Below are positions 3,288 to 61,795 of a stretch of DNA of 64,000 bases, piece after piece; position 1 is the stretch's first letter, and each line of letters begins with the position of its first letter. This stretch comes from Thauera sp. GDN1 (GTDB lineage Bacteria > Pseudomonadota > Gammaproteobacteria > Burkholderiales > Rhodocyclaceae). The translations under genes were made by a program, and so were the position numbers. The stretch is from contig NZ_CP097870.1 in assembly GCF_029223545.1 (NCBI RefSeq), positions 2,480,001 to 2,544,000 on the forward strand, given 5' to 3'. The notes under the pieces are model-generated. The model searched no databases. It saw only the letters and a list, made by a program, of their open reading frames with translations, and was not told the origin of the DNA.

Positions 3288-3305
3288 CATCGTCCGATGA
3301 GACTA
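3288..3305 (-). promoter_or_regulatory. Steroid-block motif, copy a (upstream of DUF1329 copy 1)
   Basis: The coding strand reads TAGTCT-CATC-GGACGATG, a perfect match to the consensus of the nine copies. It lies between the acyl-CoA synthetase stop and the DUF1329 start. A hexamer AACAAT follows 21 nt downstream and could be a -10 box. An unrelated 7-bp hairpin (3254-3260 with 3269-3275) lies just downstream of the motif. Confidence 0.6.
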
Positions 3306-3329
3306 AGTCGCAGGCAGCGGCCGAAATAC

Positions 3330-5030
3330 TCAGCCCTGAGCCGCATCGACGAATGCCTTGCGCAGTTGTCCCTTGAGCAGCTTGCCGGCCGGATTGCGCG
3401 GCAAGGCATCGGTCAGCACCTGCACGACGGCTGGCACCTTGTACGCCGCCAGATGCGCCCCGACGTGGGCGCGCAGGGCGTGCGCGTCCAGGCCACTGCC
3501 CTCGCGCACCGATACCACCGCCACCACCGCCTCGCCCGTTTCCTCGTCGGGCACGGCGAACACCGCCGCCTCCAGGACGTCCGGCTGGTGCAGCAGGCAG
3601 GACTCGACCTCGGCCGCCGCGATCTTCTCGCCGCAGCGGTTGATGACGTCCTTGATCCGGTCGACGACGAACAGGAAGCCCTCCTCGTCCAGATAGCCGA
3701 CGTCGCCCGTGCGGAACCAGCCGTCGCTCATCGCGGCCGCGGTGGCCTCCGGATTGCGCCAGTAGCCCTGCATCACGGTCACGCCGCGCAGCCAGATCTC
3801 GCCCTGCTCGCAGGGCGGCAGGGGCTGCCCGTCGGCGTCGGCGATGCGGACATCGACGATCGGCGAGGTGAGGCCCGAACTGCGCGGCTGGTAGGCGAAC
3901 AGCGCGCCCGATGCGGCGGCGCCGACGCCGTTGGTCTCGGTCAGGCCGAAGCCGATGCCCGACAGCGAATTCGGCCGCCGCTGCATCACCTCGTCGATCA
4001 GCCGCTGCGGCAGGCCCGCGCCGCCGAAGCCCAGGCCCGCCAGCGTCCCGGTCTGCGTCGGATCGTCGAAGCCCGGCTGCGCCAGCAACTGCATCACCAT
4101 CGATGGCGCGCCGTTGAACTGGGTGATCCGCTCCTCGCGGATGACCTCGAGCGCCTGCGCCGGATCCCATCGGCTCACGAACACCAGTTGGCGGCCGTTG
4201 CGCAGCGCGCTGAGCAGTTGCGCATGCAGGCCGCTGACGTGGAACAGCGGCACGGCCGTCAGGGTGGTGGGCGGCAGGCCCTTCGCCATCAGCGCCGCGA
4301 CCGCCTCGGGCGAGGTCATGCCCGACAGCGCGCCGATATAGTCGATGTTGAACAAGGCCTGGCACACCGCGCGCTGGGACGACAGCACGCCCTTCGCCCG
4401 GCTGGTCGCCCCCGAGGTGAACAGGATCAGCGCCGGGTCATCGGGACCGAGCGCCGGCGAGCTCACCGGCTCCGCCGCCCGGGTGGCGGCGATTCGGTAG
4501 TCGGTGATGCCCGCGGGCATCTCGGCCTCGCCCACGCACAGGATGCGGCAGTCCGCGACCCGGGTGTCGCCGCCGATGCGCGCCAGGCGCTCGGCGTCGC
4601 AGGCGAAGACGCGCGGCTCGACGTCGTCCAGCGCGGCATGCAACTCCTCGCCGAGGCCGAAGCTGTTCAGCGGCGCCGGCACGGCACCGATCAGCGCCGC
4701 AGCGGCGAACACCACGGCCCACTCCGGCCGGTTGCGCATGGCGATGGCGACGCGCTCGCCCGGCTGCACGCCCCAGGCCCGCAGTTGCGCGGCGACCGCG
4801 TCGGCCTCGGCGAAGAAGCGGTCGAAGGTCCAGGCCTCGCCCTGGTAACGGATGAAGGGCTTGGCGCCATGCGCCCGCCCGCTCGCAATCAGGGCGGGCA
4901 GCGTGGGGAAGGCGTTGCGGTAGGCGCGCACGCTGCGGCCATCGACATTCACCTCCACCATCTCGAAGGGGGCGCCGGGCGCGGTCAGTTGGGCTCGAAC
5001 CTTGTGGGCCAGTTCGGAAAGCGGGGACAT
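3330..5030 (-). CDS. Acyl-CoA synthetase (ANL superfamily), probably for a steroid-derived acid
   Basis: This 566-residue class I adenylate-forming enzyme has the AMP-binding P-loop at about residues 205-214 (TSGATSRAKG), the GFGLTETNG motif, the GWFRTGDVG hinge region and a C-terminal catalytic-Lys segment (PRNPAGKLLKG). It would turn a carboxylic acid into its CoA thioester with ATP. The ATG at 5030 was chosen because AGGAG lies 8 nt upstream; a longer in-frame start at 5111 would overlap the preceding gene. The gene follows the MBL-fold gene by 16 nt. A FadD3-like role (activation of the C/D-ring propionate HIP) is plausible from the surrounding ipd genes, but the substrate cannot be read from the sequence. 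The P-loop has Ala where Thr is usual (TSGAT for TSGTT). Confidence 0.85.
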   Translation of the reverse strand: MSPLSELAHKVRAQLTAPGAPFEMVEVNVDGRSVRAYRNAFPTLPALIASGRAHGAKPFIRYQGEAWTFDRFFAEADAVAAQLRAWGVQPGERVAIAMRNRPEWAVVFAAAALIGAVPAPLNSFGLGEELHAALDDVEPRVFACDAERLARIGGDTRVADCRILCVGEAEMPAGITDYRIAATRAAEPVSSPALGPDDPALILFTSGATSRAKGVLSSQRAVCQALFNIDYIGALSGMTSPEAVAALMAKGLPPTTLTAVPLFHVSGLHAQLLSALRNGRQLVFVSRWDPAQALEVIREERITQFNGAPSMVMQLLAQPGFDDPTQTGTLAGLGFGGAGLPQRLIDEVMQRRPNSLSGIGFGLTETNGVGAAASGALFAYQPRSSGLTSPIVDVRIADADGQPLPPCEQGEIWLRGVTVMQGYWRNPEATAAAMSDGWFRTGDVGYLDEEGFLFVVDRIKDVINRCGEKIAAAEVESCLLHQPDVLEAAVFAVPDEETGEAVVAVVSVREGSGLDAHALRAHVGAHLAAYKVPAVVQVLTDALPRNPAGKLLKGQLRKAFVDAAQG

Positions 5031-5046
5031 CGGTGACTCCTGAAGA

Positions 5047-6120
5047 TCAGTTTGCAAGGCTGAAGCGATAAAGGCCGTCGTCGTCAAGCACGCGCCGGAC
5101 CTCGCCCGCATAGCGCAGCCAGGACAGGTGGGCGATGGTTTCCCCCAGCGCCATCATGTCCTCGACCGCGCTGAGGGTACGCGGGAACAGCCTCGCCTTG
5201 GTCTCGAAAGCGGTGGACGCACCGGATTCACGCAGATGGGTGCGCACGATATCGAACTGCAGCCGGTGATGGGCGTGCAGTTCCGCGACCCGCGGCAACA
5301 GCCCGCTGAACACGCGCTCGTGCGAGGGCAGCACCAGCGTTTCCGGCGCCAGCAAGGCGAGGCGGTCGAGCGAGTCGAGCCAGAGCTTGAGCGGATTGGC
5401 CTCGGGTTCGATGTCGGAGACCAGCACGTTGGAGGTGATGCGCGGCAACAGCTGGTCGCCCGCGATCAGCAGGTGGTCGCCCGCGCAGTACAGGCAGGCA
5501 TGTTCGGGCGAATGCCCCTCGCCGATCACCACCCGCCAGTCGCGCCCGCCGATCGTCAGCACCTGGCCTTCGCGCAGGCGGTTGAACGCGCGCGGATGGG
5601 GCGGCATGAAGGGGTCGCGGCGCAGCTTGGCGAACATCTCCTCCACGCGCTCGCGCGGCATGCCGGCGCGCAGATAGAACCGGAGCAGCGAATCGGGAAG
5701 CGGCTCGGGCGGCGGCCCGGCCAGCGTGCGCATGGTGAAGTACTCGCCATGCGTCATGTACAGCGGCGCCTCGAAGCGCTCGGTCAGCCACGCCGACAGG
5801 CCGGCGTGGTCGTAATGGAAGTGCGTGCAGATCACGCCCTTGAGCGGCAGGCCGTCGAAATGGCGCTCGACGATCGTCTCCCACAGCGCACGCGAGGTCG
5901 GCAGGTTCAGGCCGGTATCGACGATGAACCAGCCATCGCTGTCGCGCAGCAGGTAGACGTTGATGTGGTCGAGCTGCATCGGCATCGGCATGCGCGCCCA
6001 GAATACGCCCGGCGCGAGCGTGACCAGTTCGCCGTCGGGCTGGGGCGGGGCGAACGGGAATGCGATCCGGTCCAGGGTGCCGGACGCCACCTCTGCAGGG
6101 GGATGCGCGGTTTCGACCAT
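5047..6120 (-). CDS. Metallo-beta-lactamase-fold hydrolase
   Basis: The 357-residue protein carries the HxHxDH zinc motif (THFHYDH, His100-His102-Asp104-His105). Further metal-ligand segments are GHSPEH near residue 205, AGDQLL, and PSHERVF near residue 270. The fold covers thioesterases, lactonases and glyoxalase II-like enzymes. A thioester or lactone hydrolase acting on a steroid intermediate is inferred only from context, namely its operon with an acyl-CoA synthetase. GGAGA precedes the start. The promoter region is shared with the divergent kshA gene and holds two copies of the steroid-block motif. Confidence 0.8.
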   Translation of the reverse strand: MVETAHPPAEVASGTLDRIAFPFAPPQPDGELVTLAPGVFWARMPMPMQLDHINVYLLRDSDGWFIVDTGLNLPTSRALWETIVERHFDGLPLKGVICTHFHYDHAGLSAWLTERFEAPLYMTHGEYFTMRTLAGPPPEPLPDSLLRFYLRAGMPRERVEEMFAKLRRDPFMPPHPRAFNRLREGQVLTIGGRDWRVVIGEGHSPEHACLYCAGDHLLIAGDQLLPRITSNVLVSDIEPEANPLKLWLDSLDRLALLAPETLVLPSHERVFSGLLPRVAELHAHHRLQFDIVRTHLRESGASTAFETKARLFPRTLSAVEDMMALGETIAHLSWLRYAGEVRRVLDDDGLYRFSLAN

Positions 6121-6183
6121 GGTGTCTCCGTCCTTGTCGTTGTTGTCCGAGCCTCACATTAGGCGGGGCCATCGGTCACGGAC

Positions 6184-6201
6184 ACGTCCAAAAGGACGAT
6201 G
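6184..6201 (+). promoter_or_regulatory. Steroid-block motif, copy b (upstream of kshA)
   Basis: The coding strand reads ACGTCC-AAAA-GGACGATG. Its core CGTCC-N4-GGACG is a perfect inverted repeat, which suggests a dimeric DNA-binding protein. GACCAT follows exactly 20 nt downstream, and the kshA start is 161 nt downstream. Confidence 0.55.
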
Positions 6202-6235
6202 CCCCACCCCGGCGGCGAACCGACCATGATTTAGC

Positions 6236-6253
6236 CATCGTCCAAACAGGGGA
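6236..6253 (-). promoter_or_regulatory. Steroid-block motif, copy c (half-conserved, upstream of the MBL hydrolase)
   Basis: The coding strand reads TCCCCT-GTTT-GGACGATG. Only the GGACGATG half is intact. It is oriented toward the MBL-fold gene and lies 115 nt from its start, back to back with copy b in the divergent region. Confidence 0.4.
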
Positions 6254-6362
6254 TGTGAGCGCCATCCCCGGCCACCAGAATCGATCACGTTCGGGCTTTC
6301 AGGCCGGCACTTGGCGCCAACCCGATGGATTGACATTGGATCACTACGAAGAGGAGGCCCGC

Positions 6363-7469
6363 ATGGCCACAACGAAAGACTATCGCCTAGGCGAATACAC
6401 CTTCCCGCGCGGCTGGTTCATGATCGCCGAAGCGTCGGAACTGGATACCCACAAGCCGCACGCGGTGCGCTTCTTCGGCCAGGACTTCGCGCTCTACCGC
6501 GGCCGCGAGAGCGGCAAGGTGGTGCTGCTCGACGCCTACTGCCCGCACATGAAGACCCACCTCGCCGCGCCCAACAAGACCTCGTACGTGGTGCTCGACG
6601 GCGGCGGCACCAACGTCGAAGGTGACGGCATCCGCTGCCCCTACCACGGCTGGCGCTTCGGTGCCGACGGCAAGTGCGACCACATCCCCTACCACGAAGG
6701 CCAGATCCCGGCCGCAGCCAAGGTGAAGTCGTGGCCGGTGGTCGAGAGCCTGGGGGCGATCTGGGTGTGGCACGACCCGGAAGGCGGCGAACCGGAATGG
6801 GATCACCCCATGCTCGCTGAATGGAACGACCCGGCCTGGGTGCACTGGAAGTTCGACCACCTCGGCATGCTCAACCAGCACCCGCAGGAAGTCATCGACA
6901 ACATCTGCGACTACGGCCACCTGAGCCCGATCCACGGCTCGACCGTGCTCAAGTACGAGAACGAGTTCCAGGGCCACAAAGCGATCCAGCGCCAGTGCGG
7001 CCCGCACCGCACCCTGGTCGGTGAGGACGGCGTCAGCCCGATCCTGCACACCATCACCATGTACCACGGCCCTGGCGTGCTGATCTCGCACCTCACCGGC
7101 CTGTACGACGCCGTGATGATGATCTGCAACACCCCGGTCGAGGATGGTTCGATCAAGGTCTGGCACGCCCTGCTGGTGAAGTCGCCGAGTGGCAGCAAGG
7201 TGGCGACCCACACCGACATGGTGGCAGCGCGCCACTATCAGGAGATGGCACTCACCGCCTTCGCCCAGGACTTCGAGGTGTGGTCGCACAAGGCGGCCTG
7301 CCTGAACGGGCTCTTCATCCCGAGCGACGGCCCGTTCATGAAGGCGCGCATCTGGTACAAGCAGTTCTACAACCCGCGTGCGAAGAAGAACGAATACCTC
7401 GAGCAGTGCGAGGGCTACTACGTGCCGAAGGGGATTGCGCCTTACACCGACGAGCCTGTCGCCGCCTGA
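6363..7469 (+). CDS. kshA: Rieske non-haem iron oxygenase, KshA-like 3-ketosteroid 9-alpha-hydroxylase
   Basis: This 368-residue oxygenase has a Rieske [2Fe-2S] site with Cys60-x-His62 and Cys92-x2-His95. The mononuclear iron site is predicted as His186 and His191 (DYGHLSPIH) plus Asp303. Length and layout fit KshA, the oxygenase of 3-ketosteroid 9-alpha-hydroxylase, which with KstD triggers opening of steroid ring B. The ATG follows AGGAGG by 5 nt; the frame is open further upstream but without a ribosome site. The gene is monocistronic: a strong terminator follows and the divergent neighbours belong to another unit. No KshB-type reductase is encoded in the window, so the electron donor must come from elsewhere. 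A related steroid or bile-acid Rieske oxygenase cannot be excluded. Confidence 0.75.
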   Translation: MATTKDYRLGEYTFPRGWFMIAEASELDTHKPHAVRFFGQDFALYRGRESGKVVLLDAYCPHMKTHLAAPNKTSYVVLDGGGTNVEGDGIRCPYHGWRFGADGKCDHIPYHEGQIPAAAKVKSWPVVESLGAIWVWHDPEGGEPEWDHPMLAEWNDPAWVHWKFDHLGMLNQHPQEVIDNICDYGHLSPIHGSTVLKYENEFQGHKAIQRQCGPHRTLVGEDGVSPILHTITMYHGPGVLISHLTGLYDAVMMICNTPVEDGSIKVWHALLVKSPSGSKVATHTDMVAARHYQEMALTAFAQDFEVWSHKAACLNGLFIPSDGPFMKARIWYKQFYNPRAKKNEYLEQCEGYYVPKGIAPYTDEPVAA

Positions 7470-13832: not shown

Positions 13833-14618
13833 TCAAGCGTGCTGCGAACTGACCGACAGCACTTCGCCGGTCATGTACGACGCATAGTCGCTGGCGAGGA
13901 AGACCATCACGTTAGCCACCTCCCACACCTCAGCGGCACGGCCGAAGGCCTCGCGGCTGGCGAGCTGGGCGAGCAGCTCCTCGCTCGACGCCTTCTTCAG
14001 GAACTCGTGCAGCGCGATCGACGGCGACACCGCGTTGATGCGCACGCCGTGCTCGGCCGCCTCCACCGCAGAGCAGCGCGTCAGCGCCATCACGCCGGCC
14101 TTGGCCGCGGCGTAGTGGGCCTGGCCCTTCTGTGCACGCCAGCCCAGCACCGAGGCGTTGTTCACAATCGCGCCGCGACCACGCTTCTCCATGTGCGGCA
14201 GCATCGCGCGCGTCATGCGGAAGGTGCCGGTCAGCGTGATGTCGAGCACCCGGCTCCACTCGTCGTCAGTCATCTCGGTGACGCGCTTCTCGCCGCCCAG
14301 ACCGGCGTTGTTGATCAGCACGTCGACGCCGCCAAGCTTGTCCTCGGCCGCGGCGACCAGGGCCTGCACTTCCTCTTCATTGGTGACGTTGCACAGCTGA
14401 CCCCAGACGTTCTGCAGCCCGGTGTCGGCCTTGAGCTTGGCGACCGCCTCTTCCAGGCGGCGCGGATGGATGTCGGAGATCATCAGCGCGCGGCAGCCCT
14501 CCTCCGCGCACTTGCGCGCGGCGGCAAAGCCGATGCCGGCGCCGGCCGCGGCGGTGATCAGGACGGACTTGCCAGCGAGCAACTGGTGACCGGGAACGTA
14601 GGAAGGCGCTTCTTTCAC
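13833..14618 (-). CDS. ipdF: IpdF-like short-chain dehydrogenase
   Basis: This SDR has the cofactor motif TAAAGAGIG, NNAG, and the Ser-Tyr-Lys active site within NNASVLGWRAQ and HYAAAKAGVMALTRCSA, ending TGEVLSVSSQH. These segments closely resemble, from memory, IpdF of actinobacteria, which acts on the 5-hydroxyl/5-oxo group of HIP-CoA derivatives. I place the start at a GTG (14618) with GAGG 8 nt upstream, giving 261 residues, close to the roughly 262 of mycobacterial IpdF. The ATG at 14651 is less likely because it overlaps a TATAAA -10-like box. It is the first gene of a seven-gene operon. Confidence 0.8.
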   Translation of the reverse strand: MKEAPSYVPGHQLLAGKSVLITAAAGAGIGFAAARKCAEEGCRALMISDIHPRRLEEAVAKLKADTGLQNVWGQLCNVTNEEEVQALVAAAEDKLGGVDVLINNAGLGGEKRVTEMTDDEWSRVLDITLTGTFRMTRAMLPHMEKRGRGAIVNNASVLGWRAQKGQAHYAAAKAGVMALTRCSAVEAAEHGVRINAVSPSIALHEFLKKASSEELLAQLASREAFGRAAEVWEVANVMVFLASDYASYMTGEVLSVSSQHA

Positions 14619-14650: not shown

Positions 14651-14694
14651 TTTATAGGGGGGGCGCCGGCGGGCAGCATCGTCAAAACGGACGG
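14651..14694 (-). promoter_or_regulatory. Steroid-block motif, copy i, and -10 box of the ipdF operon
   Basis: The coding strand reads CCGTCC-GTTT-TGACGATG (14694-14677), then exactly 20 nt, then TATAAA (14656-14651). This is the clearest promoter among the nine copies: the motif would abut or overlap the -35 position, as expected for an activator site. Transcription would start near 14645, upstream of the GTG start of ipdF. Confidence 0.6.
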
Positions 14695-18494: not shown

Positions 18495-20120
18495 TCAGAA
18501 GTTGTACTTCACGACCAGGGACAACTGATCGCGGTCGGTGAGCGCTCTCTCGGTCTTCATGTCGGTGCTGGCCTTGCCCAGAAAGTCGAGATAAGTGAGC
18601 TCGAAGCTGAGGTTCTGGTTGTAGGTCAGCGCTGCCCCGACACTCAGGCGGCGATCACCCTCGCCGCCCACCGGCCCCATCAGCGTGCGCCCGCTCAACT
18701 GGTGGGAGTAGCTGATCGGAACTTCGAGATCCCAGCCGCTGAAGACCCCGTCATAAGTCAGGATGAGCGACGTGGAGATGCCCAGTCCGTGACCGGACAT
18801 GCTCAGACGGTTCGACGCAGGGAAATACTCCGCCATCGGCCCCAAGGCCTCGACGCCTCTCGCCTTGAGCTTCTTCACGCTGCGGACATCGATGTAGGAA
18901 ACCTCGGCGAGCAGCAGCGCCCCGTCGGCGAAATCCGAACGCCCCAGGTTGATGAAGGAGTTGAGGCTGGTCTGCAGCACGTTCGCCCGGCTCGGGGTCG
19001 GCAAGGCGGTGCCCGATCCCGGATCGACGACGGTATCGACCAGTTCCGGTGCGCCCCGCTTGTAGGCCACCTCGCCGGCGAGCGTCGCCACGCCCAGGGT
19101 CGTGCTGAACGATGCGCCGATCAGCTTCACGTTGTCGAAGTAGCGGTTCCGATACGCGCCACCCTCCAGCGCATCACTCGCCGCAAAGACGTCGATCTCG
19201 GGCAGTGCGATACGGTCGTGGTAGTTCAGGTAGTACAGGCCCAGTTCGGTCTCTTCGGTGACACGGTAACGGGTGCCGATGCCCCACTGCCCGGTGTCGC
19301 CCGGCCTGTCATCGCCTTGCCGGGCGCCGAATGAGCACGTGTACCCTCCCCGCCCGTTGGGGATGAAGGGGCCAAGGCATTCGTTGCCGGGACCGGACGA
19401 GTCACTGGTATTGAGGAAGGACCCGGGCGCCGCGCTCACCGTCGGATGCCAGCCGTATTGCGCGTGGGCCATCAGGGTCCATTCCGGTGTCGGCCTGTAG
19501 ATCAGCGAAACCTGGTCCTCAGGCAGCAGCAGGTCCTTGGTCTCGGTGCCGGGAATATCGCTCTTCGAACCGTCCACCGGTCCCTGCGCGAGGGAGATCG
19601 CCGGGAAGAACAGGGACTCGCCCCAGGACACGACGTGCCGGCCCACGCGAAGCGTCGCGTCGCCATCGCCCACGCCGAAGCTGGTGTAGGCATACGCGTC
19701 CAGAATGCGGCTGTAGCCGCCGTGGTAGCGGCGCGCGTCCGAACTGAAGGAGCCCGGCGTATCCGACGTATTCAGATACGGGCGGTCGCTGTCGGTACCG
19801 CGATGATAGACGTCGTCGTAGAAGGTGCTGGCGGAGAGCACGAAGCCGCTCCTGTCCTTGGACAGCTTGCCCTCGAACAGCAGACCCAGACGATTCGCGG
19901 TGAGCGAGCCTTTGTCGAAGTTGTTGTTTCCATCCACGTCCAGCAGCACCGGATCGGGGGATCGGAGCCGGGTCGCAAGCGTATAGGTTGCGGTTCCCTT
20001 CCAGTCGAGCTTTGTGCCGTTGTCAAAGACGATGCTTTCTCCGCCCAAAGCAGGCGATGCAAGAAGAGCGCCGAGGACTGCGGTCGCGACCGGAGACAGT
20101 TTGAACGTCAGCGAGGTCAT
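18495..20120 (-). CDS. DUF1302 family outer-membrane protein (copy 2)
   Basis: This 541-residue paralogue of the protein at the left end of the window has a signal peptide (ending near SPALG), the same STFYDDVYH and RYHGGYSR segments and a C-terminal Phe. The ATG at 20120 is preferred to one 6 nt upstream because AAAGGA then stands at a normal 7-nt distance. It follows DUF1329 copy 2 by 13 nt. No copy of the steroid-block motif precedes this pair, so it probably handles a different compound under a different regulator, perhaps the nearby LuxR protein. Confidence 0.85.
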   Translation of the reverse strand: MTSLTFKLSPVATAVLGALLASPALGGESIVFDNGTKLDWKGTATYTLATRLRSPDPVLLDVDGNNNFDKGSLTANRLGLLFEGKLSKDRSGFVLSASTFYDDVYHRGTDSDRPYLNTSDTPGSFSSDARRYHGGYSRILDAYAYTSFGVGDGDATLRVGRHVVSWGESLFFPAISLAQGPVDGSKSDIPGTETKDLLLPEDQVSLIYRPTPEWTLMAHAQYGWHPTVSAAPGSFLNTSDSSGPGNECLGPFIPNGRGGYTCSFGARQGDDRPGDTGQWGIGTRYRVTEETELGLYYLNYHDRIALPEIDVFAASDALEGGAYRNRYFDNVKLIGASFSTTLGVATLAGEVAYKRGAPELVDTVVDPGSGTALPTPSRANVLQTSLNSFINLGRSDFADGALLLAEVSYIDVRSVKKLKARGVEALGPMAEYFPASNRLSMSGHGLGISTSLILTYDGVFSGWDLEVPISYSHQLSGRTLMGPVGGEGDRRLSVGAALTYNQNLSFELTYLDFLGKASTDMKTERALTDRDQLSLVVKYNF

Positions 20121-20133
20121 TTCCATATCCTTT

Positions 20134-23307: not shown

Positions 23308-24453
23308 ATGCAATATGATTTTTCCAGTCTGCTCGACCAGATTTACGAGGGAATCTCAGCCGCCGTGCCCTGGCAGCGCTTTGCCGAGGGCTTGCGCGCC
23401 GCACTGGAGGCCCGCAACGTCTTCATCACCCTGCATCATGATCACGATGGCGGGCAGGATGTCTTCGTCAGCGCGAGCGAGCCGGAGGACGATATCGACT
23501 GGGTTGCGGTCGAAGTAACCTACCGCGCCGAGTTCATGAAGGACGACCCCTTCCGGCCCGCCAGCATGGAACCCGGCCAGCTGATTCTCATGGAGCCCGC
23601 CAAGGGCGATGCAAAGAAGCTTGCGTTCTTCGCACATCTCAAGATTGCCCGGACATTGAGAGTCTGCATTGCCGAACAGGGTGGCCTCCGGTGCTGGATC
23701 GACGTGATCCGGGACTTCACTCGCCCCGATCCCTCATTCACCCCAGCCGATCTCGCATTGATCCGGGCATTGCAGCCCCATCTGACGCGCGCACTTGGCC
23801 TTTATGCCCAGTTGAAGCGACAGGAAGCGGAGAAGGCCATCTACGAAAGTATCGTCGATCATTTCGCGCTGGGCTGCATCCTGCTCAATGACAAGGGAGA
23901 AGTGATTCACGTCAACCGCGTGGCATCCTCGGTCATCGAGCACTGCCCGGACATGACGATCACCCAGAAACGCCTGGCACTCGCCGACCGGTCGGCCCAG
24001 TTGCAGCTGAACGATGCGATTGCGAGCGTAATTGCAGCTCGATCGCGAGCCGACACCAGCCTCGGTGGAGAATTGGTGCGTCTGGGCGGATTCCATAGCA
24101 GGCTGATCGGCATGCTCGTCTATCCAACACCCCTGCAGCCCTATTATCGGAGTGGACAGGCGCCCTGCGCGGTCATCTACCTTTCAGATCTGACGGCCAA
24201 TCTCGAGGCATTGCGCCCAACCCACACCCAGTCCCTCACGCGCATTGGTCAACTGTTCGGCCTGACACGGCAGGAGGCCACGCTGGCCTTGTTCCTTGCC
24301 TACGGCAACACCATCACCGAAGCGGCCCAGCAGATGGACATTGCCGAAACGGCAGCACGCAATTATTCGAAGAAGATCTACGCCAAGATGGAGATTGCCA
24401 GCCAGGCCGACCTGATCCGCCTGGTGCTGCGCAGCGTCTCCTTCCTGCGCTAG
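23308..24453 (+). CDS. LuxR-family transcriptional regulator
   Basis: The 381-residue protein has a C-terminal helix-turn-helix of the LuxR/GerE type (about residues 312-378, with LTRQEATLALFLAYGNTITEAAQQM and KKIYAKMEIASQADLIRL). The N-terminal part is a sensor-like region without a recognised receiver domain; the aspartates needed for phosphorelay are not apparent. Large one-component LuxR regulators occur in steroid utilisation (TeiR of Comamonas is an example known to me). It is divergent from the MFS-DUF1329-DUF1302 genes and most likely controls them; control of the steroid-block motif is a further possibility. GGAG lies 6 nt before the ATG. Confidence 0.8.
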   Translation: MQYDFSSLLDQIYEGISAAVPWQRFAEGLRAALEARNVFITLHHDHDGGQDVFVSASEPEDDIDWVAVEVTYRAEFMKDDPFRPASMEPGQLILMEPAKGDAKKLAFFAHLKIARTLRVCIAEQGGLRCWIDVIRDFTRPDPSFTPADLALIRALQPHLTRALGLYAQLKRQEAEKAIYESIVDHFALGCILLNDKGEVIHVNRVASSVIEHCPDMTITQKRLALADRSAQLQLNDAIASVIAARSRADTSLGGELVRLGGFHSRLIGMLVYPTPLQPYYRSGQAPCAVIYLSDLTANLEALRPTHTQSLTRIGQLFGLTRQEATLALFLAYGNTITEAAQQMDIAETAARNYSKKIYAKMEIASQADLIRLVLRSVSFLR

Positions 24454-24598
24454 AAAGCGAGCACCCCCGTAGCGGGCGCTGCCGCAGGCAAGGCCGGCGC
24501 CGGCATCGCCACCCCGGGCCGGCCTGGGCGAGTCGATTGCCAGCCATGAGGCAGGCGCTTATGCTCGGCCTCGACGCCTCCCCCGACCTGCAAGATCG

Positions 24599-26815: not shown

Positions 26816-26821
26816 GTCAGT

Positions 26822-52204: not shown

Positions 52205-53107
52205 TCAGGCGGCCTGTTCCTTCTGACCCACGCCGAAGTCGTGGCCCCAGATGCTGACGCGGGTGAACTCGAAGGCATTGTGGCGCTCCCAGTCGCACTG
52301 CAGCCCGCCGTAGCCGTACTCGAGATCGAAGCCCGAGGGCGTCTTCATGTAGAAGGAGATCATGCGGTCGTTGAGGTGCTGGCCCAGGGTGGCCGACAGC
52401 GGCACCTTGTGCGCGATGCGGCGGTCGTGGGCGCGGCCGACCTCGGTCATCGAATCGACCTCGACCATCACGTGCACGCAACCGCTCGGCACCGGGTACT
52501 CGGCGATTGCCAGGCTGTGATGGCGGGCGTTGTTGCAGTGCAGGAAATGGATGCGCACCGGCGGCGCCGACGGGTCGGGGCGGAAGTTGAAGATGTCCGA
52601 CAGACCGAAACCGAGCACGTCGCGGAAGAAGGCCGCAGTGGCGTCGAAGTTGGGCGCCGGCATCACGGTGTGGCCCAGGCCCATGTCACCGGTGAGGAAG
52701 CTCGGCACGCCCTGCGGCGAGACGAAGGGCTGGCAGTCGGACAGATGACCCCAGCACAGCTCGTGGCGATTGCCCGAGGGGTCGCTCACCACCGCGACGG
52801 CCTGCATGCCGCGCTGGGCGACGGTGGCGGCATCGGCCAGTTCGTAGCCCACACCCTTGGCGTCGAGCTCGGCCAGCGCCGCCTTGAAGGCGCCCTCGCC
52901 CGGAAGCTCCCAGCCCGAAGCCACGTAGCGGCGCTCGGCGCCCCGCACCACCAGGATGCGGAAGGGACGCTCGTCCATCTTGATGTAGAGACCGCCGCCA
53001 GGCGCAGCCGAGGTCATCATGCCGAGCACGTCCTCGGCGTAATGCTTCCACTCGGCGAGGTCGTCGATCTGGGCCACGAAGTAGGCCAAACCGCGGATGT
53101 CGATCAT
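52205..53107 (-). CDS. hsaC: HsaC, extradiol dioxygenase for the secosteroid catechol
   Basis: The 300-residue type I extradiol dioxygenase has two vicinal-oxygen-chelate domains. Iron ligands are His146 (GLGHTV), His212 (CVHVMVE) and Glu263 (DLEYGYG); the second-sphere residues His197, His244 and Tyr253 are also present. HsaC cleaves ring A of the 3,4-dihydroxy-9,10-secosteroid. The start at 53107 matches the usual 300-residue length; a longer upstream frame is non-coding. It opens a long operon and has one steroid-block motif 62 nt upstream. Confidence 0.9.
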   Translation of the reverse strand: MIDIRGLAYFVAQIDDLAEWKHYAEDVLGMMTSAAPGGGLYIKMDERPFRILVVRGAERRYVASGWELPGEGAFKAALAELDAKGVGYELADAATVAQRGMQAVAVVSDPSGNRHELCWGHLSDCQPFVSPQGVPSFLTGDMGLGHTVMPAPNFDATAAFFRDVLGFGLSDIFNFRPDPSAPPVRIHFLHCNNARHHSLAIAEYPVPSGCVHVMVEVDSMTEVGRAHDRRIAHKVPLSATLGQHLNDRMISFYMKTPSGFDLEYGYGGLQCDWERHNAFEFTRVSIWGHDFGVGQKEQAA

Positions 53108-53169
53108 TGCTGCCCCCAAAAGATTGCTCGGATACGTGGGGGCATTGTGCGAACAGGCGGCCGCGCCAT

Positions 53170-53187
53170 CATCGTCCGTTGAGACTA
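53170..53187 (-). promoter_or_regulatory. Steroid-block motif, copy d (upstream of hsaC)
   Basis: The coding strand reads TAGTCT-CAAC-GGACGATG. CACAAT, a -10-like hexamer, follows exactly 20 nt downstream, and the hsaC ATG is 62 nt downstream. Confidence 0.65.
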
Positions 53188-53220
53188 CGCAAATCGTGCG
53201 ACCGAACCCCGCGGCAAGCC

Positions 53221-53256
53221 AAAAAAAGGGCCGCCAACCCTTGCGGGGAGGCGGCC
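53221..53256 (-). terminator. Rho-independent terminator after the DUF35-MaoC gene
   Basis: On the minus strand GGCCGCC (53256-53250) pairs with GGCGGCC (53235-53229) and is followed by a C and seven T. It lies about 100 nt after the DUF35-MaoC stop and separates that unit from the hsaC operon. Confidence 0.85.
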
Positions 53257-53277
53257 TCGAAGAGAGGAGGGTAAACC

Positions 53278-53370
53278 ATGCAACGAAACTGCAGGTACTA
53301 CGACAACGCACTACACGAACACAAACTCGATTCGGACGCGGCGACGCCGGCGGTCACATGTACAGGATGA
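53278..53370 (+). CDS. Possible 30-residue peptide with a strong ribosome site
   Basis: AGGAGG (53265-53270) stands 7 nt before an ATG opening a 30-codon frame that is polar, contains two Cys and ends within the 3' end of the convergent DUF35-MaoC gene. No homologue is recognised. The ribosome site is the main argument; chance is quite possible. Confidence 0.2.
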   Translation: MQRNCRYYDNALHEHKLDSDAATPAVTCTG

Positions 53371-54322
53371 CCAGATCGTTGATGACCGACGGCCGCTCGC
53401 TGCCGACGACATGGGTGACGATCTCCATCGTCAGCTGCATGCCCTTGGGCAGTTTTTCGACCGACTTCACCCGCGACCGGGCGTGGATGCGCGAACCCGC
53501 CGGCACCGGCGCCGGGAAGCGCAGGCGGTCGGAACCGTAATTGACCATGTTGTTGAAGCCGACGACCTCGAAATCGAGCGGGATACGCAGCCGCGATTGC
53601 AGCACCTGCACCAGCGCGCCATGGGCGATGGTGCCGCCGAAGGGGCTCTGCTTGCGCGCGCGCTCGGGGTCGGTGTGGATCCAGTAGTCGTCACCCGACA
53701 GCTTCGCGAATTCGTCGATCAGCGCCTGATCGACCACGATCTGGTTGCTCCAGGCCGAGAAGGTGTCGCTCACCAGCGCCTTCATCGCCGCCTCGTCGTC
53801 GCAGCGCACCTGGCGCTTCGCGGCCGCCGGCTCGGCGCTGGCCTGGGCTCCGGCCGCCGCGGCGAGCGCGGCGGGCGTGCTGTCGATGCGGGCCGGGAAA
53901 TCCTTGTCCGCCGCGGTGAAGCGCAGCAGCGCGGTGCCGTCGGACTTCACCTTGTCGAACACCGGCTTGACCCGCATGCCGACCTCGATCTCGGACTCGT
54001 CGAGGCCGATCAGCGTGGTGTTGATGCGCACGCCCTCGTCGAGCTCGACCACCGCCATCTTCTGCGGCATCTCGTCGGCGAAGTCGGGCAGCGTGGGGAT
54101 GCGGGTCAGGGTGTAGGTGTAGAGCGTGCCGGCGCCCTCGACCTGCTTCCACTCCAGGTCCTGCGACCAGCACTTGTCGCAGTGGCGGCGCGGAAAGAAG
54201 ATCCAGTGGCCGCAGGAATTGCATTGCGGGATCGTGAGGCGGCCTTCCTTGAGGCCGTTCCAGTACGGTGCCGAGATCGCGGTCGGTGTCGGCAGCGGTT
54301 TGTTGGTCGACATGCTCGTCAT
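53354..54322 (-). CDS. DUF35 (zinc ribbon + OB fold) - MaoC fusion protein
   Basis: The 322-residue protein has an N-terminal rubredoxin-like zinc ribbon (Cys-x2-Cys in CNSCGHW, Cys-x2-Cys in CDKCW), then an OB-fold DUF35 domain to about residue 140, an Ala-rich linker, and a C-terminal MaoC domain (AKLSGDDYWIHTDPERA, FGGTIAHGALVQVL). In mycobacteria the ChsH2 protein joins the same two domains in the opposite order and binds the aldolase Ltp2 through DUF35. The adjacent Ltp2-like gene makes the same partnership likely. Its ATG overlaps the Ltp2-like stop by 4 nt (ATGA). Confidence 0.8.
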   Translation of the reverse strand: MTSMSTNKPLPTPTAISAPYWNGLKEGRLTIPQCNSCGHWIFFPRRHCDKCWSQDLEWKQVEGAGTLYTYTLTRIPTLPDFADEMPQKMAVVELDEGVRINTTLIGLDESEIEVGMRVKPVFDKVKSDGTALLRFTAADKDFPARIDSTPAALAAAAGAQASAEPAAAKRQVRCDDEAAMKALVSDTFSAWSNQIVVDQALIDEFAKLSGDDYWIHTDPERARKQSPFGGTIAHGALVQVLQSRLRIPLDFEVVGFNNMVNYGSDRLRFPAPVPAGSRIHARSRVKSVEKLPKGMQLTMEIVTHVVGSERPSVINDLVILYM

Positions 54323-55530
54323 GCTCCCTGGAGAATCAGTGCGCCCTGCTCGCTCATCACGCCACCGGTGCCCGAGACGAACACGGTGTCGCAGCGCTTG
54401 AGCTGGCGCTCGCCGGCGCGGCCGGAAATCTGGTGGAAGGCCTCGATGACCTGCGACATGCCGCCCGCGGTGCCGCTCTGGCCGAAGCTGAGCTGGCCCC
54501 CGTGGGTGTTCATCGGGAAGTTGCCCTTGTAGGTCAGGTCGTGCTCGCGCACCCAGCGCATGCCCTCGCCCTTGGGCGCGAAGCCGGCGTCCTCGAGCGT
54601 CAGCAGCACGGTGATGGTGTAGCAGTCGTAAATCTGCGCGGCGTGGATGTCGCTGCGCTTGACGCCCGCCATCGCGAAGGCACGCTCGGCCGCGGGGCCG
54701 ATGGGCGTGTCGGTCATTTCGGCCGCGTAGGTCGGCGACTTGAAGTACAGGTGCTCGCCGAAGCCGGTGATGCAGGCGCCGCGGTTCTTCGCCCGCGCTG
54801 CCACTTCCTTCGAGGCGACGATCACGGCGGCGCCGCCGGCGACCGGCATCACGATCTCGAGCACGCGCAGCGGCTCGGCCACCATCTTGCTGGCGAGCAC
54901 GTCCTCGATGGAAAGCGGCTTGCCGAAGAAGCTGGCGTCCGGGTTGGCGAGCGCATTGGTGCGCTGATCGACCGCGATCTTGGCCATCGCCACCGGGTCA
55001 TAGCCGTACTTCGCCGCGTAGCGCTGGGCGATCATCGCGTAGCCGGTGTTCTGCCCCATGTGGCCGTAAGGCAGGTCGAATTCCGCCTCGGGGGCGCCGA
55101 AGGCGGTGCTGTGGCCACCGAAACGCATCGCACGAGCCATCCAGCTCGGATCCTCGTCCGGCCCGAAGGGCGCCATGCGCGCGGGAATCACGCACAGCAC
55201 GGCCTGGCAAAGACCCATCTCGACCGCCATCGCCGCGCGCCACACCGCCGCCACCGACGAGCATCCACCCAGGTCGACGACCTCGGCGAAGTTGAGCGAC
55301 AGGCCGAGGTATTCGGCCGCCATCGCCGGCACGAAGACCTGCGCCTCGTGGAACTGCGGACCATGGATCACCAGGCCGTCGATGTCGGCGGCCTTCAGCC
55401 CCGCATCGGCCAGCGCCTGGCCCGCCAGATCGGCCACCTGCTCCAGATGGAACATCCGCGGCGCGGTCGCGTATTTCTCCGGCTTGTACTGCGCGGCGCC
55501 GACGATTGCTGCGTTTCCTTTGAGACCCAT
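54319..55530 (-). CDS. Ltp2-like thiolase-fold steroid side-chain aldolase
   Basis: The 403-residue protein has the SCP-x/lipid-transfer thiolase fold with GGCSSVAAVWRAAMAVEMG and later HGGQLSFGQSGTAGGMSQVIEA. Such proteins, together with DUF35 proteins, perform retro-aldol cleavage of the steroid side chain at C17. The gene is coupled to the DUF35-MaoC gene, the expected partner. A simple acetyl-CoA thiolase is less likely given the context. Confidence 0.8.
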   Translation of the reverse strand: MGLKGNAAIVGAAQYKPEKYATAPRMFHLEQVADLAGQALADAGLKAADIDGLVIHGPQFHEAQVFVPAMAAEYLGLSLNFAEVVDLGGCSSVAAVWRAAMAVEMGLCQAVLCVIPARMAPFGPDEDPSWMARAMRFGGHSTAFGAPEAEFDLPYGHMGQNTGYAMIAQRYAAKYGYDPVAMAKIAVDQRTNALANPDASFFGKPLSIEDVLASKMVAEPLRVLEIVMPVAGGAAVIVASKEVAARAKNRGACITGFGEHLYFKSPTYAAEMTDTPIGPAAERAFAMAGVKRSDIHAAQIYDCYTITVLLTLEDAGFAPKGEGMRWVREHDLTYKGNFPMNTHGGQLSFGQSGTAGGMSQVIEAFHQISGRAGERQLKRCDTVFVSGTGGVMSEQGALILQGA

Positions 55531-55605: not shown

Positions 55606-55623
55606 AATCGTTCAAATCGACTA
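55606..55623 (-). promoter_or_regulatory. Steroid-block motif, copy e (upstream of the Ltp2-like gene)
   Basis: The coding strand reads TAGTCG-ATTT-GAACGATT, a slightly diverged copy. It lies in the divergent region between the Ltp2-like gene (75 nt away) and the PQQ dehydrogenase (110 nt away), oriented toward the former. Confidence 0.45.
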
Positions 55624-55732
55624 GGCGAAGCGGAGGAGCCCCTCCGGACGGACGATTCGGCGCGCGCCCGCGCGCCCGATGATGCGCAGGTCATCCCCAC
55701 CACGCGGGCGGTCGCGCCCGAAGGAGTCCCCC

Positions 55733-57829
55733 ATGCGCCGCTTCCGGCAAAGAACGATGCTCATCGCGCTCGCTGCCGCCGGCACCCTCGCCGCGCAGGC
55801 CGTGGCGATCGCTGCCGCGCCACCCTCCCCGTCCACCGCCGTCGCCAGCGAATGGCCACGGCATGGCCTCGACGCCGCCGAGACCCGCTTCAGCCCGCTG
55901 TCGGCGATCGACACCGACAACGTCGGGCGCCTGGGCCTGGCCTGGCACTTCCGCTTCGACCGCCCGCGCGGGGTCGAGGCGACGCCGATCATGGTCGACG
56001 GCACGCTCTTCGTCACCGGGCCGTGGGGCGTGGTGTATGCGCTCGACGCGCGCAGCGGCCGGCTCAAGTGGCAGCACGACCCCGAGGTGCCGGCCGGCAA
56101 GGGCATGCACGCCTGCTGCGACGTGGTCAATCGCGGCGTGGCGGTGGAGGACGGGCGCGTCTTCGTCGCCACCACCGACGGTCGCCTGCAGGCCCTGGAC
56201 GCCCAGGACGGCCGCCTGCTGTGGTCGACGCGGACCTTCGACATCGAGACGCCCTACACCATCACCGGCGCACCGCGGGTCGCGCGCGGCCTGGTGGTGA
56301 TCGGCAACGGCGGCGCCGAGTACGGCGTGCGCGGCTTCGTCTCGGCCTATGACGCGCAGACCGGCGCGCTGCGCTGGCGTTTCTACACCGTGCCGGCCAA
56401 CCCGGCAGACGGCCAGGACGGGGCAATCTCCGACCACCCCCTCGAGGAGCTCGCCCTGCCGACCTGGACGGGGGAATGGTGGCGCCACGGCGGTGGGGGC
56501 ACGGTGTGGGATTCGATGGCCTGGGACCCGGAGCTCGACCTGCTCTACTTCGGCGTCGGCAACGGCTCGCCCCACGACCGCGACGTCCGCAGCCCCGGCG
56601 GCGGCGACAACCTGTTCCTGTCCTCGATCGTCGCGGTCCGCGCCAGCACCGGCGAATACGTCTGGCACTACCAGACGACGCCCGGCGACAGCTGGGACTA
56701 CACCGCCACCCAGCACATGATCCTGACCGAGCTGGAGATCGGGGGCCGCCCGCGCAAGGTGCTGATGCAGGCGCCCAAGAACGGCTTCTTCTACGTCCTC
56801 GACCGCAGCACCGGCGAACTGCTGTCCGCCGACAAGTACGTCACGGTGAATTGGGCGAGCCACGTCGACCCCGCCAGCGGCCGTCCGGTGGAGACCGAAG
56901 GCGCGCGCTACCCCGCCGGCCAGCCCTTTCTGGTCCAGCCCTCGCAGCTCGGCGGACACAACTGGCAGCCGATGGCGTGGAGCCCGGCCACCGGTCTGGT
57001 CTATATCCCGGCCCAGGAAAACACCGGCTTCATGATGAAGGAGCCCGGCTTCCGCCATGAGCCCGGGCGCTGGAACACCGGCGTGCTCAATCCGCCGATG
57101 CCGCCCGACCCCGCCGTACTCGAACAGGCCAAAGCCTCGATGCACGGCCATCTGCTGGCCTGGAACCCGGTGCGCCGAACGGCGGCCTGGCGTGTCGCCC
57201 ATCCAGGCTCCTGGAACGGCGGCGTGCTCGCCACCGCCGGCGGGCTGGTGTTCCAGGGCATAGGCGGCGAGGGGCTGACCGCATTCGACGCGCGTGACGG
57301 CCGCCGCCTGTGGCAGTCCGACACCTGGCTCGACATTCTCGGCGGCCCGATCAGCTACACGCTCGATGGCGAACAGTACATCGCCGCAGCGGCCGGCTTC
57401 GGCAGCTCCATGCACATCACCTCCAGCGCCCTGCTGCCGCGCACGGGCGCTCCGGTGCCGGGCGGCCTGTTCGTGTGGAAGCTGGACGGCAAGGCCGCCA
57501 TGCCGCAGCCGACGCAGCGGCCGCGCGCGGCGCCTCCGCCCGACACCGGCACCGAAGCCGAGATCGCGCACGGCGCGGCGCGTTACGCGCGCTACTGCAT
57601 GCAGTGCCATGGGGCCGGGGCAGTGGCCGGCGGAGGGATGCCCGACCTGCGCCAGTCACCGTACCTGGGCGAGGCCGCGCTGTTCCGCCGCCCGCTGCTC
57701 GACGGCCTGCTCGCCGCGCGCGGCATGCCCGGCTTCGCGGAGACCCTGACGACGGCGGACGCCGACGCGATCCGTCACTACATCATTCGCATGGCGCACA
57801 TCTTCGCCCGGCTGCCGGCGAAGGACTGA
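55733..57829 (+). CDS. PQQ-dependent quinohaemoprotein alcohol dehydrogenase
   Basis: The 698-residue exported enzyme has a signal peptide (about residues 1-28), an eight-bladed propeller domain with the vicinal disulfide Cys128-Cys129 (HACCD) and repeated tryptophan-docking segments, and a C-terminal cytochrome c domain with Cys622-x2-Cys625-His626. It oxidises an alcohol in the periplasm and passes electrons to a haem. Within a steroid cluster, oxidation of a side-chain alcohol is a plausible role, but the substrate is unknown. AAGGAG precedes the ATG; an earlier in-frame ATG at 55679 lacks a ribosome site. PQQ synthesis genes are not in the window. Confidence 0.85.
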   Translation: MRRFRQRTMLIALAAAGTLAAQAVAIAAAPPSPSTAVASEWPRHGLDAAETRFSPLSAIDTDNVGRLGLAWHFRFDRPRGVEATPIMVDGTLFVTGPWGVVYALDARSGRLKWQHDPEVPAGKGMHACCDVVNRGVAVEDGRVFVATTDGRLQALDAQDGRLLWSTRTFDIETPYTITGAPRVARGLVVIGNGGAEYGVRGFVSAYDAQTGALRWRFYTVPANPADGQDGAISDHPLEELALPTWTGEWWRHGGGGTVWDSMAWDPELDLLYFGVGNGSPHDRDVRSPGGGDNLFLSSIVAVRASTGEYVWHYQTTPGDSWDYTATQHMILTELEIGGRPRKVLMQAPKNGFFYVLDRSTGELLSADKYVTVNWASHVDPASGRPVETEGARYPAGQPFLVQPSQLGGHNWQPMAWSPATGLVYIPAQENTGFMMKEPGFRHEPGRWNTGVLNPPMPPDPAVLEQAKASMHGHLLAWNPVRRTAAWRVAHPGSWNGGVLATAGGLVFQGIGGEGLTAFDARDGRRLWQSDTWLDILGGPISYTLDGEQYIAAAAGFGSSMHITSSALLPRTGAPVPGGLFVWKLDGKAAMPQPTQRPRAAPPPDTGTEAEIAHGAARYARYCMQCHGAGAVAGGGMPDLRQSPYLGEAALFRRPLLDGLLAARGMPGFAETLTTADADAIRHYIIRMAHIFARLPAKD

Positions 57830-57919: not shown

Positions 57920-58123
57920 TCAGTGCGTCGCCAGCATCGCGAAGAAGCGGCCGGTCGAGGCGTTTGCGGGCGAACCCGTGTTGTGACACTGAGTCTCGCT
58001 GGCGCCGCAGGCCGGGATCTGGACCAGGGAGTCGAGCACCCGGGAATGGCCGCGGTCGAGCATGGCGGCAAAGGCTGCGAGGCATCCGAACACGCATCCG
58101 CACAACAGGGCCTTGGTAATCAT
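57920..58123 (-). CDS. 67-residue exported or membrane peptide controlled by a steroid-block motif
   Basis: The peptide begins with a hydrophobic segment (MITKALLCGCVFGCLAAFAA) that could be a signal peptide or a membrane anchor, then a short polar tail with two more Cys. GGAGGAGAAG lies just before the ATG, an excellent ribosome site. A copy of the steroid-block motif lies 143 nt upstream in the correct orientation, which argues strongly that the gene is real. It is convergent with the PQQ dehydrogenase gene. I do not recognise the family. Confidence 0.55.
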   Translation of the reverse strand: MITKALLCGCVFGCLAAFAAMLDRGHSRVLDSLVQIPACGASETQCHNTGSPANASTGRFFAMLATH

Positions 58124-58266: not shown

Positions 58267-58284
58267 CATCGTCCAAACGGACTA
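58267..58284 (-). promoter_or_regulatory. Steroid-block motif, copy f (upstream of the 67-residue peptide gene)
   Basis: The coding strand reads TAGTCC-GTTT-GGACGATG; its core GTCC-N4-GGAC is a perfect inverted repeat. It lies just beyond the terminator of the steroid-CoA ligase gene, where the only downstream gene on that strand is the small peptide. Confidence 0.6.
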
Positions 58285-60883: not shown

Positions 60884-60894
60884 GCCGGCCCCCC

Positions 60895-61629
60895 TCAGAT
60901 GAACGCCATGCCGCCGTTGACGGCGAGGTTCTGCCCGGTGATGAAACCCGCATCGTCGCTGGCCAGGAAGGCGGCGACGCGCGCGATCTCCTCCGGCTCG
61001 CACATGCGGCCGAGCGGGATGGCCTTGATCATCGACTGCATCCACTCGTCGGGGATGCCGGCCATCATCGGGGTGTTGGTCGGTCCGGGGACGATGGTGT
61101 TGACGCGGATGCCGCTGGTGGCCAGCTCGCGCGCGATGCTGCGCGTCAGACCCATGACGCCGGCCTTGGAGGCGCAATAGTGGCTGGGGCCCTCGCCCGA
61201 CATCGCGGCGGTGCTCGAAACGTTGATGATCGCGCCCTTGGCGCCGCACTGCTGCATCAGGCGCGCGCCCTCGCGGCAGCACAGGAAGGTGCCGGTGAGA
61301 TTGACGGCGACCACGCGCATCCAGTTTTCGTCGGGGGTATCCAGGAAGGCGTCGACCGAACCGATACCGGCGCTGTTGACGACGACATCGAGACGACCGA
61401 AACGCTCGGCGACGGCGGCGAAGGCGGACCTCACCGAGGCCGGATCAGCCACGTTGCAGGCCAGCGCGAAGCCGTTCGCGCCAAAGTCGGCCACCGCCGC
61501 CGCAGCCGCATCCGCGTTGATGTCCGCAGCGACCACCTTCGCGCCACCGGCACCGAAATGCCGGACGATCGCCCGACCCATGCCCTGACCGGCGCCGGTC
61601 ACGAAAACAACCTTGTCCGCAAAACCCAT
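60895..61629 (-). CDS. Short-chain dehydrogenase, possible steroid hydroxyl oxidase
   Basis: This 244-residue classical SDR has TGAGQGMGRAIV, NSAG, and the triad in NVSSTAAMSG and HYCASKAGV. GGAGG precedes the ATG. SDRs of this type include 3-alpha-, 7-alpha- and 12-alpha-hydroxysteroid dehydrogenases; which hydroxyl is oxidised cannot be told here. It is the first gene of the minus-strand unit with the SnoaL-like protein and CoA ligase, 94 nt downstream of a motif copy. Confidence 0.8.
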   Translation of the reverse strand: MGFADKVVFVTGAGQGMGRAIVRHFGAGGAKVVAADINADAAAAAVADFGANGFALACNVADPASVRSAFAAVAERFGRLDVVVNSAGIGSVDAFLDTPDENWMRVVAVNLTGTFLCCREGARLMQQCGAKGAIINVSSTAAMSGEGPSHYCASKAGVMGLTRSIARELATSGIRVNTIVPGPTNTPMMAGIPDEWMQSMIKAIPLGRMCEPEEIARVAAFLASDDAGFITGQNLAVNGGMAFI

Positions 61630-61723
61630 CTGTCGCCTCCTTGTGCTTGTCCGTTCGGGCACCGCATCCAGTGCGGACACCCGACCATATGGCGCACAGT
61701 CTTCTAGGCTTGCGACGACTGGA

Positions 61724-61741
61724 CATCGTCCACTAAGACTA
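61724..61741 (-). promoter_or_regulatory. Steroid-block motif, copy g (upstream of the SDR/CoA ligase unit)
   Basis: The coding strand reads TAGTCT-TAGT-GGACGATG, identical to the consensus outside the spacer. It is oriented toward the minus-strand SDR, 94 nt away. Confidence 0.65.
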
Positions 61742-61777
61742 ATGGCGGGTACCTTGCGCTGCGACCGATGACGCCCG

Positions 61778-61795
61778 TCGTCTGAATGGACGATG
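61778..61795 (+). promoter_or_regulatory. Steroid-block motif, copy h (upstream of the MFS transporter)
   Basis: The coding strand reads TCGTCT-GAAT-GGACGATG. GACGAT follows exactly 20 nt downstream. It forms a divergent pair with copy g, 36 nt away, and faces the plus-strand MFS gene. Confidence 0.6.

Follow-up and report, generated by a model that had tools for sequence, protein, structure and literature searches.

A conserved dyad element before steroid genes of Thauera sp. GDN1 and its probable recognition by a TeiR-like protein of the LuxR family

Steroid-catabolic genes of Thauera sp. GDN1 are preceded by a recurrent promoter element, a 20-bp dyad cnTMGTCY-N4-GGACGATG followed about 20 nucleotides (nt) downstream by a -10-like hexamer. 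The starting point was a 64,000-nt stretch of the genome (the window; positions 2480001-2544000 of the single 3.87-Mb contig, genome G000), whose Pfam content, including a KshA-like Rieske oxygenase, a tesB-like extradiol dioxygenase, a ChsH2-type OB-fold/MaoC protein, thiolases, AMP-binding ligases, SDRs, MFS transporters and DUF1329/DUF1302 proteins, agrees with a steroid region. Judged from sequence comparison, the element is almost certainly a conserved operator. It probably serves a single activator of the LuxR (GerE) family that would switch on a steroid-catabolic regulon, the most likely reader being protein B, a TeiR-like protein encoded to the left of the window (Table 1).

The strict form of the element (TMGTCYN4GGACGATG) occurs exactly 14 times in the genome and its reversed control not once, and 12 of the 14 matches lie between positions 2457319 and 2604149, a steroid region of ~150 kb; the remaining two are 2025914 and 2274792. 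When up to two mismatches were allowed, 35 matches were obtained against 11 for the reversed pattern, with 11 of the 13 matches at no or one mismatch falling between the same two positions. Within the window, TAGTCTN4GGACGATG was matched 13 times at up to three mismatches (mean 3.25 and maximum 9 in 100 shuffles). A first-pass annotation of the window had listed nine copies, all of which exist in the orientation given; the pattern search recovers eight, and the ninth, 14677-14694(-), which has four mismatches, is recovered with a matrix. By our own gene calls all nine are intergenic, with GGACGATG on the side of the gene that they precede, an arrangement that depends on the chosen start codons, because the longest open reading frames of the KshA (6060-7469), tesB (52205-53311) and MFS (61786-63228) genes overlap or enter their sites. 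Site strength is unequal: the copies at 3288, 53170, 58267, 61724 and 61778 are within one mismatch, and the weaker ones at 6184, 6236 and 14677 score 17.0, 16.1 and 15.1 bits against the matrix. The claim that no copy precedes genes of the accessory block (RidA to DUF4160) broadly stands, although two poor intergenic matches are found there, at 22941(+) (15.8 bits, 349 nt before the gene of the LuxR protein A, with no -10 at 20 nt) and at 29686(-) (10.5 bits, 62 nt before gene 28022-29623). Beyond the nine copies, we found a probable half-site at 55640-55657(+) before a PQQ dehydrogenase gene, and 16 of the 24 sites analysed below lie outside the window, where the genes behind them encode SDRs, an acyl-CoA dehydrogenase, a BNR/MMPL pair, an MFS transporter, a flavoprotein, a flavin reductase, F420-type oxidoreductases and an enoyl-CoA hydratase. 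Near-perfect dyads also occur between divergent genes (e.g. 2593521/2593523) and may serve both directions.

The set of 24 sites used for the architecture (8 in the window, 16 outside) excludes the duplicate 2274792, 2025914 (a strict match inside a gene), the degenerate 2535606, the distant 2502941, second-strand readings of dyads already counted, and further matches of at least 15 bits located inside genes or distant from any (2517813, 2198691, 1827843, 1757321 and 1075032); 2600851 is just inside a gene by our own call but was retained, its counterparts in relatives being intergenic. Around centre 8.5, 138 of 240 position pairs are complementary; none of the 21 other centres tried exceeds 82. 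The hexamer NANNNT, placed about 20 nt on by the first-pass annotation, stands exactly 20 nt on at 14 of the 24 sites, against at most 7 for any one offset in 2000 shuffles, which covered single offsets only. With 19-21 nt allowed, 21 of the 24 sites have it. The core had been described as an imperfect inverted repeat; the dyad is confirmed, whereas the bare core GTCYN4GGAC had to be rejected as a marker, since its 12 occurrences in the window (shuffled mean 5.31) are reached by 3 of 100 shuffles. It is the right half GGACGATG together with the hexamer phase that carries the signal, rather than the bare core.

If the last base of the hexamer is taken as -7, which places the start site from the hexamer, the dyad would be centred at -42.5, the classical class II position. 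A 17-nt spacer would start the -35 hexamer at A16 of the motif, and no further conserved hexamer is seen there in the aligned own-genome sites. The ~20-bp dyad, the near-fixed distance to the -10 and the overlap with the -35 are those of a LuxR-type class II operator, and class II activation from the element is likely; the earlier view of a promoter element tied to steroid genes that overlaps the -35 like a class II activator site is supported. The almost invariant GGACGATG and the nearly invariant -10 phase could also be expected if the element were the -35 part of a promoter for an alternative sigma factor. We consider this very unlikely, as the left half is conserved as part of a dyad too (T1 0.98, G3 0.95, T4 0.93 and C5 1.00 in 98 thinned sites found with a one-mismatch pattern), some dyads could by their position act in either direction, and the hexamer resembles a usual -10 (NANNNT). 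It is likewise improbable, if less so, that B binds the dyad as a repressor released by an inducer: other steroid regulators, KstR and EdcR, are described as repressors (PMC8700777, PMC6678751), but the dyad lies upstream of and overlapping the -35 at a near-fixed distance from the -10, with no conserved -35 hexamer, and TeiR, the named relative, acts positively according to published descriptions (PMC6678751, PMC8399759).

Placement outside the own genome was assessed on 784 kb from five same-genus genomes, in stretches picked around strict matches. None of the 116 matrix matches of at least 15 bits (90 places) lies inside a called gene, though this DNA is 87% coding, and 106 of them have a same-strand gene next to them, many of the other 10 being reverse readings of a dyad. 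As to the frequency of the motif in coding or unrelated DNA, on which the first-pass annotation was to be judged, the strict form and the matches of at least 15 bits in relatives speak against refutation, but one-mismatch forms are equally common in genomes that lack B, and some own-genome matches of at least 15 bits are in genes (the non-steroid stretches were picked at two-mismatch matches and hence are no random sample).

Strict-site counts are bimodal among 29 same-genus genomes, 11 of which hold 3-15 sites and 18 hold 0-2. Orthologues of B (at least 86% identity) are present in exactly the 11 genomes with at least three strict sites, and tesB in 10 of these and in none of the other 18. 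The regulators compared in the same way were B, A, the C type and a TetR-family protein of the cluster (2470021-2470686). The LuxR protein of the window, A, had been put forward as one candidate regulator. It belongs to the same family as B, lies inside the cluster and has a poor motif copy upstream, but its orthologue (at least 64% identity) is found in just 3 of the 11 motif-rich genomes (G000, G012 and G018) and its recognition helix is unlike the B type, making it an extremely unlikely reader. The accompanying suggestion, that the regulator may be encoded outside the window, fared better, with B, a second LuxR/GerE protein, as the best candidate. TetR proteins bind dyads, and the TetR-family protein is also located in the cluster and occurs in 8 of the 11 motif-rich genomes. 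That it represses through this dyad is nevertheless hardly credible, because it has no match at E 1e-20 in G003, G007 and G021 despite their 11, 12 and 11 strict sites, and the dyad ends ~20 nt before the -10, at near-fixed spacing, instead of covering it. More serious, albeit still unlikely, is that the operator is real but common to B and a C-type paralogue (~40% identity), the two competing or acting in a cascade. C-type genes (37-41% identity to B) are present in 8 of the 11 motif-rich genomes, two sites (2678355 and 2678391) lie near C in the own genome, homologues from Burkholderia and Cupriavidus (46% and 41% identical to B) resemble it in their helices and lie close to motif-like sites, and Pseudomonas stutzeri Chol1 is described as having two TeiR-like genes, deletion of one of which strongly delays growth on cholate, a result cited as unpublished data (PMC8399759). 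On the other side, G016 and G021 have the motif and B, with no C-type match or any other relative of B at E 1e-10, and the sole other match of G007 is 26% identical. That the B family reads the motif is, on balance, highly probable.

The own genome contains 14 GerE matches, the three weakest of which, A, B and C, lie in or near the steroid region. B is the last gene of an apparent operon starting behind the operator copy at 2463734. Its GerE domain is C-terminal (PF00196, 28.1 bits versus a cut-off of 23.5), with a helix-turn-helix resembling that of ComA, which places it in the LuxR/GerE family; GerE is the only Pfam domain at E 1e-5, the autoinducer-binding domain of homoserine-lactone LuxR proteins being absent from the result. 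The maximum 19-residue hydropathy is 1.06, and this simple test detects no membrane-like segment. For its structure model (pLDDT 72, pTM 0.48), the best Foldseek matches are sensors of the GAF/PAS type and two PAS-GerE proteins, VqmA and EL222; at query TM-scores of ~0.2-0.3 this fold comparison is weak and was used only to suggest domain types, so that the assignment of GAF/PAS-like folds to B is tentative and of low confidence. We propose that a B dimer would bind the 20-bp dyad CNTMGTCY-N4-GGACGATG with its right half overlapping the position of the -35 hexamer and the -10 hexamer ~20 nt on, and that the N-terminal part of B would sense a steroid or steroid-CoA ligand.

Several observations weigh against this proposal. 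B lies inside the steroid cluster, and within the genus B, tesB and the motif come and go together, so that co-occurrence cannot separate B from every cluster gene. One-mismatch strict forms are equally frequent in genomes with and without B (e.g. 29 in both G001 and G000), and these whole-genome counts were therefore dropped as a marker; G026, a 77% complete genome, has two strict matches and no B. The helix of C, ISRNTARCQLRAIFAKTGVTRQTELV, resembles that of B, so that the paralogues may share the operator. Some own-genome matches are in genes, namely the strict match 2025914, four more of at least 15 bits and, by our own call, 2600851, and 2274792, where 89 nt of the tesB promoter are duplicated, has no steroid gene in evidence downstream. 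Three of the 24 sites (6236, 14677 and 2678391) have no NANNNT at 19-21 nt; at 14677, TATAAA stands at 20 nt and is uncounted because it falls outside this pattern. Finally, no intergenic site of at least 8 bits was found in 2629232-2643998, before or within the gene run that contains an atcABC-like trio (2640251-2643998; L008 16251-19998) of FAD, 2Fe-2S and molybdopterin subunits. The lack of an operator in front of these genes suggests that the atcABC-like functions (anaerobic androgen hydroxylation) are under separate control; Thauera GDN1 is described as inducing both atcA and kshA on testosterone (PMC9980454).

Protein and motif recur together far beyond Thauera. Among the best 80 of 372 confirmed B-family loci, mostly Pseudomonas and ranging from Thauera to Pseudomonas and Marinobacterium, 79 hold the motif at one mismatch or less (216 matches, both dyad readings counted), compared with 0-14 matches for eight scrambled patterns and 3 for the reversed pattern; the sole site-less locus, L131, is a 5-kb contig. 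The hexamer phase is found again in Gammaproteobacteria, where it stands at 20 nt in 46 of 73 thinned sites (1000 shuffles give 12 at most) and at 19-21 nt in 68, and in the remaining loci, most of them betaproteobacterial, with 20 nt in 11 of 21 sites (6 at most in shuffles) and 19-21 nt in 17. These sites were thinned of near-identical downstream sequences, from 162 to 73 and from 29 to 21, with some orthology left among those kept; neither group includes L116 or the Thauera loci L061-L068, and L077 and L094, from an unclassified Proteobacteria metagenome-assembled genome, were grouped with Betaproteobacteria. All 16 proteins aligned, which range from Thauera to Pseudomonas, Marinobacterium and Halomonas, share an invariant helix region, RNTARAHLRxIFSKTGVRRQTELVRI. 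On a plasmid of Vibrio alfacsensis, which encodes a 56% homologue of B, three sites precede steroid-type genes, namely an acyl-CoA dehydrogenase gene, an ETF gene and a divergent enoyl-CoA hydratase/SDR pair. The Burkholderia and Cupriavidus loci have 5 and 8 matches at up to two mismatches (reversed control, 1 and 1). An order-wide scan of 300 genomes, with up to six candidates scored per genome, gave a match to B at E 1e-40 in four, the own genome included, and the other three carriers (46-50% identity) hold 6 (G129), 4 (G281) and 1 (G321) exact strict matches. A Sphingobium plasmid (36% identity) has five matches at up to two mismatches (control 0), one of them within one mismatch and before KshA, a signal too slight for the claim to be extended to Alphaproteobacteria.

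This distribution raises the broader view that one ancient steroid response element and one TeiR-like family control steroid catabolism across Beta- and Gammaproteobacteria and travel with the genes, the readers being soluble GAF-PAS-GerE proteins that sense steroids directly and not membrane kinases; we see the chances of it as even. The same site and protein recur in many steroid degraders whose gene control was largely unknown, and that control can be tested directly through the precise operator, the candidate activator and the predicted regulon. They would also permit promoter-based assignment of unknown steroid genes, such as a DUF1329/DUF1302/BNR/MMPL transport-like set and a 67-residue protein of the window, and are potential parts for steroid biosensors.

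Lux-box class II operators have the same ~20-bp dyad and overlap of the -35, with a centre near the position inferred here; the present half-site (GGACGAT) differs from theirs, and B is without their readers' autoinducer-binding domain by Pfam. Palindromic operators likewise serve the steroid regulons of EdcR (Caenibius tardaugens) and KstR/KstR2 (Actinobacteria), and the KstR/KstR2 consensus differs from the present element, in keeping with the first-pass remark on these two operators. KstR and KstR2 are described as TetR-type repressors (PMC6678751). In the case of EdcR, the proposed operator, TnnCnnTACnAnTnGTAnnGnnA, overlaps the -10 (PMC8700777) and, compared by eye, does not fit either. 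TeiR/TesR of Comamonas testosteroni, described as a LuxR-type positive regulator of steroid genes (PMC6678751, PMC8700777, PMC8399759), is likened to B by description only: the two are alike in family type and in their role at steroid genes, homologues of Thauera steroid-region genes standing beside the B family in the 15 loci listed of 76 compared. In these accounts TeiR is a polar membrane protein that has kinase activity, whereas B is not membrane-like by the hydropathy test. No Comamonas sequence was among the listed homologue matches of B, and S. stutzeri K1 carries a B-family gene with 74% identity to B. If B is TeiR-like, the distribution of its family argues against a cited report that tesR-like genes occur only in C. 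testosteroni (PMC6895838). In the accessible parts of the open-licence papers searched (PMC8700777, PMC6895838, PMC12882949, PMC13101464, PMC6678751, PMC8399759, PMC12239570, PMC4810484 and PMC10637631) no operator for the TeiR-like family was found, and a text search of open-licence literature for GGACGATG gave nothing relevant among the titles listed.

Table 1. Predicted operators and associated proteins (window coordinates unless marked as genome)
Feature	Sequence	Position	Strand	Context
Predicted operator	TAGTCTCATCGGACGATG	3288..3305	-	132 nt before DUF1329 gene 1773-3155(-); AACAAT 21 nt on
Predicted operator	ACGTCCAAAAGGACGATG	6184..6201	+	161 nt before called start of KshA-like Rieske oxygenase 6363-7469(+); GACCAT at 20 nt
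Predicted operator	TCCCCTGTTTGGACGATG	6236..6253	-	115 nt before metallo-beta-lactamase-fold gene 5047-6120(-); no clear -10 at 20 nt
Weak predicted operator	CCGTCCGTTTTGACGATG	14677..14694	-	58 nt before SDR gene 13833-14618(-); TATAAA at 20 nt
Predicted operator	TAGTCTCAACGGACGATG	53170..53187	-	62 nt before called start of tesB-like extradiol dioxygenase 52205-53107(-); CACAAT at 20 nt
Degenerate predicted operator	TAGTCGATTTGAACGATT	55606..55623	-	75 nt before thiolase-like gene 54319-55530(-); 12.5 bits
Candidate tenth operator, right half only	CCCTCCGGACGGACGATT	55640..55657	+	75 nt before PQQ dehydrogenase 55733-57829(+); GATGAT at 20 nt
Predicted operator	TAGTCCGTTTGGACGATG	58267..58284	-	Upstream of small open reading frame 57920-58123(-); CAATGT at 20 nt
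Predicted operator	TAGTCTTAGTGGACGATG	61724..61741	-	94 nt before SDR gene 60895-61629(-); AAGACT at 20 nt
Predicted operator	TCGTCTGAATGGACGATG	61778..61795	+	89 nt before called start of MFS transporter 61885-63228(+); GACGAT at 20 nt
67-residue small protein, hydrophobic N-terminus		57920..58123	-	First conserved open reading frame behind 58267 operator
A, LuxR protein of the window		23308-24453		GerE match
B, TeiR-like protein, 379 residues		genome 2458360-2459499	-	GerE match; 20.5 kb left of window
C, LuxR paralogue		genome 2675986-2677152		GerE match

Individual window sites are also kept in relatives. The 3288 and 6236 sites have counterparts in G006, G017, G004 and G013, and the tesB homologue of the Burkholderia locus L151 is likewise preceded by a one-mismatch site. 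The degenerate block TAGTCGATTTGAACGATT is identical in four of five relatives, with a single change in the fifth, and GGACGATT of the 55640 half-site is kept in the four of five whose alignment covers it. The 67-residue protein, perhaps part of the steroid regulon, has counterparts of 65-70 residues, similar in sequence and place, in five relatives, in which a stretch of the leader between the 58267 operator and the start of its reading frame is conserved as well. Behind the 3288 site, a DUF1302 gene (82-1743) comes after the DUF1329 gene. The operator precedes both these genes (window 3288, -) and the BNR/MMPL pair (2466404, +), hinting that this transport-like set handles steroids. The window contains two DUF1302/DUF1329 pairs (82-3155 and 18495-21513), with an operator before the first only.

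The duplicate of the tesB promoter and its operator (89 nt, 94% identical to window 53103-53191) lies at L010 10726-10813 (genome ~2274726-2274813), in a stretch that looks rearranged, with pieces of an EAL-type reading frame and an FAD oxidoreductase. Type I restriction-modification genes (HsdR-, HsdM- and HsdS-like) are located inside the steroid region (window 31644-37281, +). Finally, a 5.26-kb block comprising an Rrf2 regulator and its neighbours is present twice in the genome (window 24503-29755 and L009 11105-16341; 96% identical), the second copy lying near the LuxR paralogue C.

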